Source: Myxococcota bacterium
Lineage (GTDB): Bacteria; Myxococcota; B64-G9
Assembly: GCA_022710975.1 (NCBI GenBank)
Contig: JAKLGA010000002.1
Location: 372,001 to 436,000 of the forward strand
Length of the DNA: 64,000 bases
Reading direction: 5' to 3'
Below are positions 51,423 through 55,286 of the stretch, piece by piece; the first letter of the stretch is position 1, and each line of letters opens with the position of its first letter. Under the pieces are notes generated by a model. That model made no database searches. It was given only the letters and a program-made list of their open reading frames with translations, and had not been told where the DNA came from. The position numbers were made by a program, and so were the translations under genes.

Positions 51423-51923
51423 TCAGGGGGCGGGCGCGGTCTGGAAGGTCGCCTCGGCGCCGATGCCGGGCCGCTCGGGGATGCCCAGGTCCGCCAGGGG
51501 GCCCAGCTTCGAGCCCTTGACGGCCGTGGTCAGCGTCAGCCGGTAGCAGGTCTGGGGCAGCAGGAAGGCGTCCTGGCTGGCGGTGGCCGGGTTGATCAGC
51601 ACCAGGGCCGGGTCCATCGCGTCCACCGCGGCGCCCGAGCCGAGCTCGGTCCAGGTGACCTCCAGGCAGCCCTCCGCCCCGGGGGTGGCCGAGGCCAGCA
51701 GCACGCTCGTCTCGCTGATCGAGGCGCCGTCCACCGCACCCGAGAAGTACACCATCGGCTGCACGGCGGGATCCACGTCCACGGCCCCGTCCAGCGGCAG
51801 GTAGACCACCTCCAGGGCGTCCGGGGCCTCGACCACCGGATCCCCGCAGGCGCCGAGCAGGCCCGCCAGCGCGAGCAGGGCGAGCGAGCCGAGCAGCAGC
51901 TTCCGAGTCCTCGTGGCGCGCAT
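51423..51923 (-). CDS. Lipoprotein with Big_5-like Ig domain
   Basis: This 166-residue protein has a signal ending LLGACGDPVV, followed by one Ig-like unit of the Big_5 kind, opening VVYLPLDGAVDVDPAVQPMVYFSGAVDGASI. It closely resembles the neighbouring lipoprotein at 51945 and follows it after 21 bases, so the two are probably duplicates in one operon. GGGAGAACCTATC precedes the ATG. Confidence 0.82.
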   Translation of the reverse strand: MRATRTRKLLLGSLALLALAGLLGACGDPVVEAPDALEVVYLPLDGAVDVDPAVQPMVYFSGAVDGASISETSVLLASATPGAEGCLEVTWTELGSGAAVDAMDPALVLINPATASQDAFLLPQTCYRLTLTTAVKGSKLGPLADLGIPERPGIGAEATFQTAPAP

Positions 51924-51944
51924 GATAGGTTCTCCCGGGCCCCG

Positions 51945-52379
51945 TCAGGGGCCGACCTCGAAGCCGGAGCGGATGGTCACGCCGAGCGGATCCGTGCGGC
52001 CCCCGTCCGTCCGGCCCTGCAGGGAATCCGCGATCACCACGGTGTAGGATCCGGCCGCGAGGGGTGAGTCCGGGCTGAAGACGACCGTGGCCAGCTCCTC
52101 GTCGAGCGCGGACAGCTCGAGCGACCCGGCCACCGGCGCGCCCGCGGCGCCCTCGAGGTGGAAGGTGTCCTCGTAGAGCTCCCCCTCCCCCGTGCCGAGG
52201 ATCACCTCGGTCGAGAACACGGCCACCACCTGGGCGTCGGGCGCGACGCCGGTCTCTCCCAGCCGGGGCGAGAGATCCAGCAGGCGCAGCGGATCGGCGC
52301 CCTGGGTGTCGACCTCCACGCCCCCGCAGCCGCCCAGCAGGGCGGCCAGGATCCCAACTCCGCAGGCGATCGCGCGCAT
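51945..52379 (-). CDS. Lipoprotein with Big_5-like Ig domain
   Basis: This 144-residue protein has a signal ending LLGGCGGVEV and one Big_5-type unit with LDLSPRLGETGVAPDAQVVAVFSTEV, as in large surface-adhesin repeats. It is likely exported and lipid-anchored. It is the first gene of a two-gene unit behind the promoter at 52431. The role is unknown. Confidence 0.82.
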   Translation of the reverse strand: MRAIACGVGILAALLGGCGGVEVDTQGADPLRLLDLSPRLGETGVAPDAQVVAVFSTEVILGTGEGELYEDTFHLEGAAGAPVAGSLELSALDEELATVVFSPDSPLAAGSYTVVIADSLQGRTDGGRTDPLGVTIRSGFEVGP

Positions 52380-52430
52380 GCTCCACTCCCTGTGGTCGAA
52401 GAGCCCTCGCCAAGCCCGAGGTTCGAGAGC

Positions 52431-52460
52431 AGTCTACCACCGGCCCGGCGCCCAGCACAA
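52431..52460 (-). promoter_or_regulatory. Promoter of the Big_5 lipoprotein pair
   Basis: On the minus strand TTGTGC and TAGACT are separated by 18 bases, about 52 bases upstream of the ATG at 52379. Confidence 0.5.
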
Positions 52461-52477
52461 GTCCCGGGTCCCGGAAA

Positions 52478-53251
52478 TCACTCGCCTTTCCGCCGGCCGC
52501 GCGAGCGGAGCAGCTCGCCCAGGTGGGCCGCCTCCCAGGCCCGCACCCGGGCCTGGTGAACGAAGAGCGCCTCCCGGGCGCGGAACTCCCGCGTGTGCAC
52601 CAACCGCCGCCGGCCCGCCTGCCTGGCCCCGAGCACGTGATGCAGCAGCTCGTGGTAGACCACCGCCACGACCACGGCGGCCGGGACCCAGGCCTGATCG
52701 AGGGCGGGGTGGACGCGGATGCAGCCGTCCTCGAACGAGTAGGCGCCGAGCTGGATGAAGCGCCGCCGGCCCCGCCGGCCGGCCCGCCCCCAGGCGATGG
52801 GCACCGCCAGCGGGCCGCCGAAGTAGGCCCGGCCCAGCGCGTCGCGGATGCGCTCCAGGTGGTACACCCGGCCCCGCGGCCCGGCCCCGGCGCGCACCCC
52901 GCCTGGGCGCAGGCGGTCCCGGTGCCGGGCGATGAAGTCGTCCACCAGCCGACCCTCGGCCCGGCTGGCGCGGCCCGACAGGTAGGCGCCCAGCGCCGCG
53001 AGCACCGGCCCGTCGGCCTCGAGGAACATGTGGTGCAGCCGCACCTCCAGCCGCCCGTGCCGGCGCCGGGCCGAGAGCACGGTCGAGGTGTTGTCGGTCA
53101 GCAGCAGGCGGAAGGGCGGGCCCGGCAGGTGGGCCGCCAGCCGCGCGGCCAGCGCCTCGCGCAAGGCCGGCTGGTGCACGGGATCGCGCAGGGGGCGGCG
53201 CACGGGCCGGGGACCGCGGAAGGCGAAGCTGAGCTGCTCCACGTCCTTCAC
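52478..53251 (-). CDS. SprT-like zinc metallopeptidase-like protein
   Basis: This 257-residue cytoplasmic protein resembles the SprT-like domain: YLSGRASRAEGRLVDDFIARH leads into the fold, IQLGAYSFEDGCIRVHPALD matches the strand before the active site, and VVYHELLHHVLG (residues about 196-207) carries HExxH. A further His lies in RRLVHTREFRAREALF, where SprT proteins place the third ligand. Eukaryotic SPRTN cuts DNA-protein crosslinks; bacterial SprT roles are poorly known. The start overlaps the stop of the pseudokinase-cyclase gene (GTGA), so the two are coupled. Confidence 0.82.
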   Translation of the reverse strand: MKDVEQLSFAFRGPRPVRRPLRDPVHQPALREALAARLAAHLPGPPFRLLLTDNTSTVLSARRRHGRLEVRLHHMFLEADGPVLAALGAYLSGRASRAEGRLVDDFIARHRDRLRPGGVRAGAGPRGRVYHLERIRDALGRAYFGGPLAVPIAWGRAGRRGRRRFIQLGAYSFEDGCIRVHPALDQAWVPAAVVVAVVYHELLHHVLGARQAGRRRLVHTREFRAREALFVHQARVRAWEAAHLGELLRSRGRRKGE

Positions 53252-54981
53252 CCGCAGCGGCTGGCGACCAGCGCCAGGCCGAGCACCACGACCAGGGCCA
53301 CCAGGCCCACGAGCAGCGCCACCGTCCCCGGGCTGCGGCGGACGCCCAGGGAGCCGAGCGCGCGCTCGACGCCCGGCCGGGCGCCCTCCTGGAGGCGGCG
53401 CGCGGCCGCGGTCAGCTCCTTGACCACCGGCCGCTCGGCGAGGCTGGCGGCGGGCAGCACGGCCGTGGGCTCGAGGCGCGGGGCCTCGCCGGTCTCGTCC
53501 CCCGACAGGTCCAGGACGTCCGGCTCCTGCCCGCGGTCCTGGGCGCGGGCCCAGTCCACCTGGTAGAGCTGGAACACGTCGCGCTTCCCCTTCAGCACCG
53601 CCCGGGAGTGGGGCTGGACCAGCTCCAGGTTGCGGGTGAGCGCCCGGCGGGTCTCCTCGGCCAGCAGGATCTGGTCACCCTCGGCCTTGCCGCTCACGCG
53701 CGAGGCCACGTTGACCGCGTCCCCGTAGGCGTCGCCGTACTCCTCGATGGCCTCGCCGGAGTTGATCCCGATGCGGATGTGCAGCTCGTCGACCGGCGCG
53801 ACCACGGCGCGGTTGTGGCCCTGGAGGGCCTGCTGCATCTGGATGGCCGCCTCGACGGCCTCGTCCTCGTCCCCGAAGGAGGCCATGATGGCGTCGCCGA
53901 TGGTCTTCAGCACCGTGCCCTGGTGGCGGCGGATGACGGGGAAGAGCAGCTCGTTGTGCCGCTCGATGCGCGCCTTGCCGGCCAGGTCCCCGTGGGTCTC
54001 GAAGAAGGTGGTGATGCCCACGATGTCGCTGAACAGGATGGTGGCCCTGCGGACCGAGGCCCCGTCCGGCAGCGGCGGACCGGACGCCGCGGGCACGGCC
54101 AGCTCGGGCTCGGAGGCCTGCCCCCGCCGGGGGCGCCGGGCGCGCGCGGACAGCTCCGCCTCCAGGGCGCCCAGCGCGAGCGCCAGGCCCTCCACGGAGC
54201 GGTGCCTGTGCTGGGGCATGGGCGCCAGCGCCGTCATGACCGCGGTCTCCAGGGAGCGCGTCACCAGCCGGTTGAAGCGCGAGGGCAGCTCGGGCCGCCC
54301 CACCCGCACGCCCGAGCCCTCGCGCACCGCGCCCAGGGCCTCGAGCGGAGCGCGGCCGGTCAGGCAGCGGTACAGGATGGCCCCCAGGGCGTACTGGTCC
54401 GAGGCCGGCTCGGCCTGGCCGCCCGCCAGCACCTCGGGCGCGGTGTAGAGCGAATCGGCCTGGGCGCCCCGGCCGAAACCCTCGATCGCCACCCGGTCCC
54501 CGGCCCGCACGAAGATCGCCTCCGGCCGCAGCGCGCCGTGCAGCACCCCCTGCGCGTGGGCCGCGGCCACGGCCTCGGCCGCCGCGCGCACCAGGGCCGC
54601 CGCGCGCGGCAGCGGCAAGCTGGCCTCTCCGGCCTGCTGCAGGAGCTCTGCCAGGCTGGGACCGCCGGCGGGCTCGAGCGCCAGGAAGCGCAGCCCGCCG
54701 CCCTCGTGCAGGTCGAACACGCGGCGCACCCCGGGGTGGGCCAGCCGGCGAGCCAGCGCGACCTCCTGGCCCACGGCGTCGAAGGGCTCCCCCTGGGCCA
54801 GGCCGGGCCTCAGCACCTGGAGGGCCACCTCCTCACCCGTCCAGGGGTCCTCGGCCAGCAGCTCGGCTCCCAGCGCGCACACCCCCAGGCGCTTGCGGAC
54901 CTCGAAACGTCCCAGCCGCTGGCCGGGCCGGGGCAGCGGGAGGCCCGAGCGCTTGCTGTTCTCGCTCTCCTCGATCGTCAA
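53248..54981 (-). CDS. Pseudokinase-adenylate cyclase fusion, tail-anchored
   Basis: This 577-residue protein has an N-terminal Ser/Thr-kinase-like domain (about 20-280), a class III cyclase domain (about 315-480) and a C-terminal membrane helix (VALLVGLVALVVVLGLALVA). The kinase half has lost catalytic residues: the ATP Lys is Gln (VALQVLR), HRD is replaced in VLHGALRPE, and DFG by EGFG. The cyclase half keeps its metal and substrate residues (LFSDIVGITTF, VLKTIGDAIMASF, YGDAVNVASR). It should be a cyclase with a regulatory pseudokinase on the cytoplasmic face of the membrane. The start is TTG at 54981 behind GGAGGA. Confidence 0.88.
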   Translation of the reverse strand: MTIEESENSKRSGLPLPRPGQRLGRFEVRKRLGVCALGAELLAEDPWTGEEVALQVLRPGLAQGEPFDAVGQEVALARRLAHPGVRRVFDLHEGGGLRFLALEPAGGPSLAELLQQAGEASLPLPRAAALVRAAAEAVAAAHAQGVLHGALRPEAIFVRAGDRVAIEGFGRGAQADSLYTAPEVLAGGQAEPASDQYALGAILYRCLTGRAPLEALGAVREGSGVRVGRPELPSRFNRLVTRSLETAVMTALAPMPQHRHRSVEGLALALGALEAELSARARRPRRGQASEPELAVPAASGPPLPDGASVRRATILFSDIVGITTFFETHGDLAGKARIERHNELLFPVIRRHQGTVLKTIGDAIMASFGDEDEAVEAAIQMQQALQGHNRAVVAPVDELHIRIGINSGEAIEEYGDAYGDAVNVASRVSGKAEGDQILLAEETRRALTRNLELVQPHSRAVLKGKRDVFQLYQVDWARAQDRGQEPDVLDLSGDETGEAPRLEPTAVLPAASLAERPVVKELTAAARRLQEGARPGVERALGSLGVRRSPGTVALLVGLVALVVVLGLALVASRCG

Positions 54982-55007
54982 GCGTGGACTCCTCCAAAAC
55001 TGCTGGA

Positions 55008-55036
55008 GTCCTACCGCGCTGCGGCACGGAAGGCAA
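55008..55036 (-). promoter_or_regulatory. Promoter of the first pseudokinase-cyclase gene
   Basis: On the minus strand TTGCCT and TAGGAC are separated by 17 bases, 27 bases before the TTG start at 54981. Confidence 0.5.
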
Positions 55037-55047
55037 GGGCCGGTCCG

Positions 55048-55239
55048 TCAGCTCCGATCCTGGCCGAAGCCGACGACGAAGCCCGTCAGGGCGAAGAAGG
55101 GCACCGCGACCGCGGGCCTGCAGGTGAGGGGTCAGCCCATCCCGGCGCTCTGCAGCGCCAGGCTCATCCCCAGCCCGACCAGCCCCGCCACCCCGCCCAC
55201 CAGGAGCGGCCAGCGCAATCTCTTCCACCACGCGCGCAT
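55048..55239 (-). CDS. Small two-helix membrane selenoprotein (Sec at residue 36)
   Basis: Reading on from an ATG at 55239 gives two membrane helices (residues 11-30 and about 43-59) with an in-frame TGA codon at 55132-55134 (residue 36). The frame continues as PLTCRPAVAVPFF and ends at a TGA at 55048, 63 residues in all. If the TGA is selenocysteine, the loop reads U-P-L-T-C, matching the C-P-I/L-T-x-x-P loop I recall from small two-helix membrane proteins of the DUF6132 kind. A GC-rich hairpin with a GGUC loop lies 14-32 bases after the TGA. Start support: GGAGGTGCGCG before the ATG and its own promoter. The alternative is a 35-residue protein ending at the TGA, which would leave the conserved continuation unexplained. 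Confidence 0.78.
55100..55118 (-). promoter_or_regulatory. Candidate bacterial SECIS hairpin
   Basis: In the message, bases +14 to +32 after the UGA fold into a 7-bp stem (GGC, one bulged U on the 3' side, then CCGC paired with GCGG) closed by the tetraloop GGUC at +21 to +24. Bacterial SECIS elements lie just 3' of the UGA, inside the coding region, with a G in the first two loop positions. The GGUC of the loop is the same as in the E. coli fdhF SECIS, known to bind SelB. Confidence 0.72.
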
Positions 55240-55257
55240 CGCGCACCTCCGGCGCCA

Positions 55258-55286
55258 AATCTAGGACATTTTGTGTCCGAATACAA
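55258..55286 (-). promoter_or_regulatory. Promoter of the selenoprotein gene with operator-like dyad
   Basis: On the minus strand TTGTAT and TAGATT are separated by 17 bases, 18 bases before the ATG at 55239. The spacer contains the perfect inverted repeat GGACA-N5-TGTCC (55264-55278), placed where a repressor would block polymerase. The regulator is unknown. Confidence 0.6.

Follow-up and report, generated by a model that had tools for sequence, protein, structure and literature searches.

A gene of 63 codons from a Myxococcota bacterium very probably encodes a two-helix membrane selenoprotein, and we hold with the same high confidence that the hairpin after UGA codon 36 serves as its bacterial SECIS. 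The gene lies in a stretch of 64,000 nucleotides, which we call the window. The case, as the sequences present it, has four strands: a reading frame that continues through the UGA, the exchange of selenocysteine (Sec) for cysteine at this position, constraint and covariation in the RNA, and a genome equipped with the Sec machinery. The features with which we are mainly concerned are as follows.

55250–55246, minus strand: Shine-Dalgarno-like GGAGG, 5′ of the ATG, read directly from the sequence
55239–55048, minus strand: the Sec open reading frame, 63 codons plus stop, with its ATG at 55239–55237 and its stop TGA at 55050–55048
55134–55132, minus strand: UGA codon 36, putatively read as selenocysteine; aligned with UGA in 15 of 15 close homologues and with Cys in every Cys homologue that alignment A4 contains
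55122–55120, minus strand: codon for Cys40, invariant across 17 rows of profile A6
55118–55100, minus strand: predicted SECIS hairpin of 7 bp with a bulged U and a GGUC loop, from sequence and folding
55115–55104, minus strand: conserved core of the predicted SECIS, with stem 55115–55112 paired to 55107–55104 and loop GGUC at 55111–55108

A small gene with a UGA at its centre

Translated with TGA as U, the frame yields the 63-residue product MRAWWKRLRWPLLVGGVAGLVGLGMSLALQSAGMG-U-PLTCRPAVAVPFFALTGFVVGFGQDRS, which has hydropathy maxima on both sides of codon 36. An AlphaFold2 model places helices at residues 2–31 and 42–59 and, between them, a loop that contains residues 36 and 40; its mean pLDDT is 68.7 and its pTM 0.36, and it is used here for the helix plan alone. 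Counted across 14 of the 15 proteins, the N terminus has 52 positive charges and the loop has 6, and because of this excess we would predict that both termini are inside and the Sec loop outside. Cys40 is the probable redox partner of Sec36, in a U-x3-C arrangement. A PDB sequence search with the 63-residue protein returned no match.

The sequence on both sides of the TGA is kept in 15 homologous genes, and GGAGG-like motifs also precede several homologues. Comparisons were made among same-phylum genomes, namely 193 relatives, or 195 genomes in the pattern and profile scans. A tblastn-type search of the 193 relatives gave nine matches at E < 1e-3, each with exactly one internal TGA. Profile A1, built from 11 sequences, found matches in 21 of 195 genomes at E ≤0.001, 13 with a single TGA and eight free of stops. 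When a DNA pattern was used instead (UGA, Cys codon, core stem and GGUC), one match each turned up in 15 of the 195 genomes and none in the reversed control over the same 195; the genes in G192 and G119 were newly found in this way, and their translations confirm them as true members. At E ≤0.01 the wider profile A6 gave matches in 43 of the 195 genomes; the best 17 rows are its own 15 Sec and two Cys members and the remaining rows are Cys forms or chance. Two weak rows bearing a TGA (in G074 and G032) were judged to be chance matches, their TGA lying off the Cys position.

The 15 Sec genes are spread over eight genera of the home family (f1), four genomes of family f13, one of f8 and two of f31. 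Two of the genomes, G192 (loci L140 and L176) and G119 (L141 and L175), carry a CxxxC Cys paralogue in addition to the Sec form. No homologue of the Sec gene was found on plasmids or, in a search at the DNA level, in E. coli genomes, and none of seven pattern matches in viral contigs is homologous to it. Among the matches listed from a wider scan of genome contigs there is only the G007 contig, which is itself in the same-phylum set.

Could UGA36 simply be a stop codon, with the frame beyond it open by chance or decaying as a remnant? We consider this very improbable. It is true that at 73% GC a UGA often has a hairpin and a short open frame beyond it: counting both strands and all frames, 56 of the 967 UGAs in the window are followed within the allowed distance by a GG-loop hairpin with 7 bp or more, and 20 of those 56 UGAs have open frames on both sides. 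Chance of this kind does not account for a UGA and a downstream frame kept in 15 genes, from 15 genomes and at least four families, nor for Cys homologues that read straight through the UGA position. Values of pN/pS 3′ of the hairpin are 0.33 and 0.39, so the region after the UGA is under protein selection, which again argues against a stop.

The hairpin and the constraint upon it

The original prediction was of a hairpin at 55100–55118, 14–32 bases after the UGA, with 7 bp, a bulged U and a GGUC loop. All of this is in the sequence as described (GGC-CCGC-[GGUC]-GCGG-(U)-GCC, the bulged U on the 3′ side); the coordinates are right, and to them must be added the strand, which the prediction lacked and which is minus. 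Folding energy makes a poor argument. The minimum free energy is −12.2 kcal/mol for the 50 nt from the UGA, and 126 of 200 dinucleotide shuffles fold as well or better (z +0.44). With comparable hairpins so frequent in the window, we rejected the energy of the single hairpin as evidence, although a GGUC tetraloop occurs in only one of the 56 hairpins, the one at 55118–55100. Taken alone, the hairpin is a lead, and weak evidence in DNA this rich in GC. Its significance comes from the conservation of the core among homologues and not from its energy. The claim that the hairpin supports recoding of the TGA therefore stands on conservation, the core being present in 15 of 15 genes, and is weak where it leans on the isolated fold.

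For the comparison, pairs are numbered from the U of the UGA, which puts the core at positions 20–31 and its loop at 24–27. Four pairs and the GGUC loop are kept in all 15 UGA genes, with 60 of 60 cells paired, and RNAalifold returns the same consensus core. Three of the pairs are invariant and so speak neither for nor against pairing. The fourth, 21–30, is CG in eight sequences, GC in six and UA in one. Its partners are the wobble bases 55114 (Pro42, CCN) and 55105 (Ala45, GCN); as both are third codon bases, the changes are silent in the protein. No shuffle in 500 reached the covariation score of the core, and versions of the core slid along the alignment scored near zero. Covariation in homologues had been named beforehand as the decisive observation, and here it is, compensatory at two synonymous positions and with three types of pair. 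Homologues that have the TGA and no foldable stem were also looked for, and among the 15 there are none: every one keeps the core hairpin.

Within family f1 the constraint is visible in the codons themselves. The hairpin codons CCC GCG GTC GCG GTG are identical across eight genera, with 0 differences at 140 synonymous sites, whereas outside the hairpin there are 213.5 differences at 288.2 sites over codons 47–58 and 383.3 at 639.3 over codons 11–35 (these counts are pairwise sums and not independent of one another). The same contrast appears in fourfold codons with a fixed amino acid. In five of these inside the hairpin the third base never varies; in all of those outside it (codons 22, 33, 47, 53 and 57) it does. 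On this comparison of sequences, the constraint over the hairpin acts at the level of the RNA.

What is conserved is smaller than the hairpin first described. The 7-bp bulged stem was considered as a conserved unit and rejected, since what is kept throughout is the four-pair core, the loop and C19–G33 and nothing more. In the 13 sequences where the lower stem was scored, pair 17–35 is present in two, 18–34 in six and 19–33 in all 13. The seven genes outside f1 have a continuous stem with no bulge. Best-energy folds over 42–50 nt lack the hairpin in four of the eight f1 genes (G001, G005, G008 and G002), and the four core pairs are nonetheless possible in all eight.

A bulged U belongs to the SECIS of E. 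coli fdhF; it is not known as a general trait of bacterial SECIS elements. Like the hairpin described here, the fdhF element follows directly upon its UGA and has a GGUC loop, placed at 22–25 rather than 24–27. The predicted likeness in loop sequence and distance, both to fdhF (a difference of 2 nt) and to bacterial SECIS elements at large, is thus borne out, with GGUC at 24–27 in 15 of 15 genes. The supposed likeness in the bulge is not: in fdhF it is on the 5′ arm, here it is on the 3′ arm, and 7 of the 15 genes have none.

Cysteine relatives, Sec machinery and neighbours

Each of the 11 Cys rows in the combined alignment A4 (24 rows) has Cys in the Sec column, and eight further CxxxC homologues also have Cys at the UGA position. 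The DNA of 24 Cys homologues gives a picture of the same region in genes that do not use the UGA. The four core pairs can form in one of them (G192b, with loop CTTC), GGTC stands at 24–27 in three (G010, G104 and G184), and none of the 24 has both the four-pair stem and GGUC. The peptide encoded over the hairpin, PAVA, follows suit, being present in 15 of 15 Sec forms versus 0 of 10 CxxxC Cys forms, and on that distribution it probably reflects the RNA element. One Cys form looks like a SECIS fossil. The CxxxC gene of G010 (L067, G010:C139, minus strand) retains the left arm and loop, CCG GCG GTC, while the right arm is gone, and its genome has neither SelA nor tRNA-Sec; as a single case, it fits a SECIS that was lost. 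In G017, a Cys form is found together with a tRNA-Sec (72.7 bits) and no SelA match, the mark of either an incomplete genome or another route to Sec, so the Cys form is not strictly tied to the loss of Sec use.

These relatives bear on a further reading, in which the constraint over 55104–55115 is owed to the PAVA peptide, to an antisense gene or to some other regulatory RNA and there is no SECIS at all. Each version has something in its favour: all 15 Sec proteins share an unaltered PAVA, an antisense frame of 123 amino acids (54893–55264) overlaps the hairpin, and so do two Rfam matches, weak and far under their cut-offs. Yet a need for PAVA would not demand that synonymous positions in the sense frame be frozen or covary, and the peptide is missing from all 10 CxxxC Cys homologues. 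Outside the hairpin it is the sense frame that is under protein selection, and the antisense frame has the lower GC3–GC2 contrast of the two. The position and loop of the hairpin agree, moreover, with those of SelD in the same genome. We think an origin of the constraint other than a SECIS very improbable too, if a shade less so than an ordinary stop at UGA36.

A bacterial SECIS presupposes an apparatus that can use it, and the genome has matches to tRNA-Sec (76.8 bits), SelA (512.7 bits) and SelB (290.9 bits, over cut-off). SelA is found in 149 of the 193 relatives and in 15 of the 15 genomes with the Sec gene, by itself a weak association. The tRNA-Sec turned up in 136 of the 193 relatives and in 11 of those 15 genomes; it was missed, under stricter search filters, in G001, G139, G175 and G192, which are drafts of 70, 92, 80 and 86% completeness, respectively. 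The genome’s own SelD (G000:C7:36890-37807, L120) has an in-frame UGA in the motif GUAAKLGPG followed by a strong GG-loop hairpin, so the genome encodes at least one further selenoprotein. In SelD of this genome, and in seven of seven UGA-bearing SelD loci of f1, the loop begins with GG at 24–25 after the UGA, the same offset as in the Sec gene; the SelD element differs in its longer stem (7–9 bp) and its three-base loop, GGA or GGU.

With the full Sec machinery present, there is little room for a UGA36 that is read as Trp or Cys, or by unspecific readthrough, with no SECIS involved. The open frame is the sole support for such a reading. The homologues carry Cys and not Trp at the UGA position; the Sec gene itself ends in UGA, and nine of ten other homologues listed end in UGA or TAA/TAG equivalents; and the constraint on the hairpin would be left without explanation. 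Decoding of this kind strikes us as most unlikely, and insertion of Sec is the reading we retain.

The genes around the Sec gene give hints about its function and little more. Two lie downstream in the window.

54981–53248, minus strand: Ser/Thr protein kinase with an adenylate/guanylate cyclase domain (Pfam Pkinase and Guanylate_cyc), the next gene downstream
53251–52478, minus strand: SprT-like putative metalloprotease, 46–51% identical to neighbours in G002, G004 and G005

The kinase-cyclase gene (53248–54981) is not conserved beside the Sec gene in the loci compared. A second, similar kinase-adenylate/guanylate cyclase gene, recognised by its sequence (the Pfam matches are those of the first), flanks the other side from 55310 to about 57275 on the minus strand, as if one of them had arisen by duplication across the Sec gene. 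The SprT-like gene is directly downstream of the Sec gene in G002, G004 and G005, two homologues having a sub-threshold SprT-like match, and it is downstream in four of eight f1 loci when G000, with the kinase gene between, is counted. At 51423–53251 (minus strand) of the window, two genes for small lipoproteins come after it, and the Sec loci of G002 and G005 have the same order. A hybrid histidine kinase gene follows the Sec gene in G139, G175 and G061; in three f13 genomes such a gene (L106:4379-6877, L107:2071-4539 and L108:4254-6731) adjoins it directly, which may suggest a possible link to redox sensing. Cys genes of the DUF6132 type lie near genes for DUF302, an FAD/NAD oxidoreductase, a thioredoxin-reductase-like protein and ArsR, and one CxxxC Cys gene lies near a thioredoxin. 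Gene calls among the neighbours were crude, made from ORF length and GC3. A conserved operon was considered as a guide to function and found weak, with SprT-like genes in four of eight f1 loci, histidine kinases in f13 and redox genes beside Cys relatives.

A probable selenoprotein at the membrane surface

DUF6132 (PF19628), a small two-helix Cys protein, is of the same size and the same two-helix plan as the Sec protein. In its motif, G-C-x4-C-P-[IL]-T, the second Cys aligns with Sec36; the first is absent from the Sec protein, where the partner Cys comes after Sec, giving U-x3-C in place of C-x4-C. Alignment of A1 against 13 DUF6132 proteins with hhalign gave 97.6% probability (E 4.7e-12, 63 columns). 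PF19628 is over its cut-off in 16 of 193 relatives, and six of those loci are also matched by A1. No Sec protein reaches the Pfam gathering cut-off of 23.2 bits, and among the A6 members the best match, in one of 17 and below cut-off, has an E of 0.0084. In a tree of 33 proteins DUF6132 forms one clade (97/88). As no Sec protein passes the cut-off, we file the family as a distant relative of DUF6132, on profile comparison, and not as a member. A below-cut-off match to the EccD transmembrane domain (PF19053, E 0.0017) was rejected, as it occurs in one of 17 members only. NCBIfam 20.0 has no model for the Sec protein and gave one chance match (E 0.0057).

Sec also occurs in YeeE/YedE, MerT and SO_0444, which are integral membrane proteins. 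They resemble the present case in having Sec in a membrane protein. In a 2026 table (PMC13188914) they are listed under other Pfam families and with other motifs. Searches of Pfam and NCBIfam matched the Sec protein to no known membrane-selenoprotein family. Table 1 of the same source, which covers 119 selenoprotein families, contains neither PF19628 nor a UxxxC motif, and passages of PMC12013277 and PMC9312934 contain no family of such a kind. Searches of the open literature on DUF6132, on UxxxC selenoproteins and on selenocysteine in Myxococcota brought up no earlier report. It is likely that this is an undescribed selenoprotein family, among the smallest of the integral membrane selenoproteins, with U-x3-C at the outer face of the membrane and a protein sequence, PAVA, shaped by its SECIS.

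How might it work? In the established mechanism of a bacterial SECIS, SelB with GTP and Sec-tRNA-Sec binds the hairpin at the ribosome. Here, SelB so charged would bind the GGUC hairpin region as the ribosome arrives at UGA36. Sec would be delivered at that codon and the second helix made in place of termination. The short interhelical loop that would then hold Sec36 and Cys40 is predicted to lie on the outside of the inner membrane, and at the membrane surface the two residues probably alternate between the selenol/thiol and the selenenylsulfide state. A Sec36–Cys40 selenenylsulfide pair would replace the cysteines of DUF6132-like relatives. The function, to judge from sequence, is probably membrane redox.

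The finding extends the list of selenoprotein families by one that is sure to escape gene finders, with its 63 codons, its central UGA and its scores under Pfam and NCBIfam thresholds. It offers a clean example of a coding sequence that also holds an RNA element, with synonymous sites frozen or covarying inside the hairpin, free outside it, and the element lost in Cys relatives. The set of homologues could serve to calibrate SECIS finders for GC-rich genomes, in which folding energy fails when used by itself. And because Sec is rarely kept where there is no chemistry for it to do, the little-studied membrane proteins related to DUF6132 gain a likely catalytic residue.
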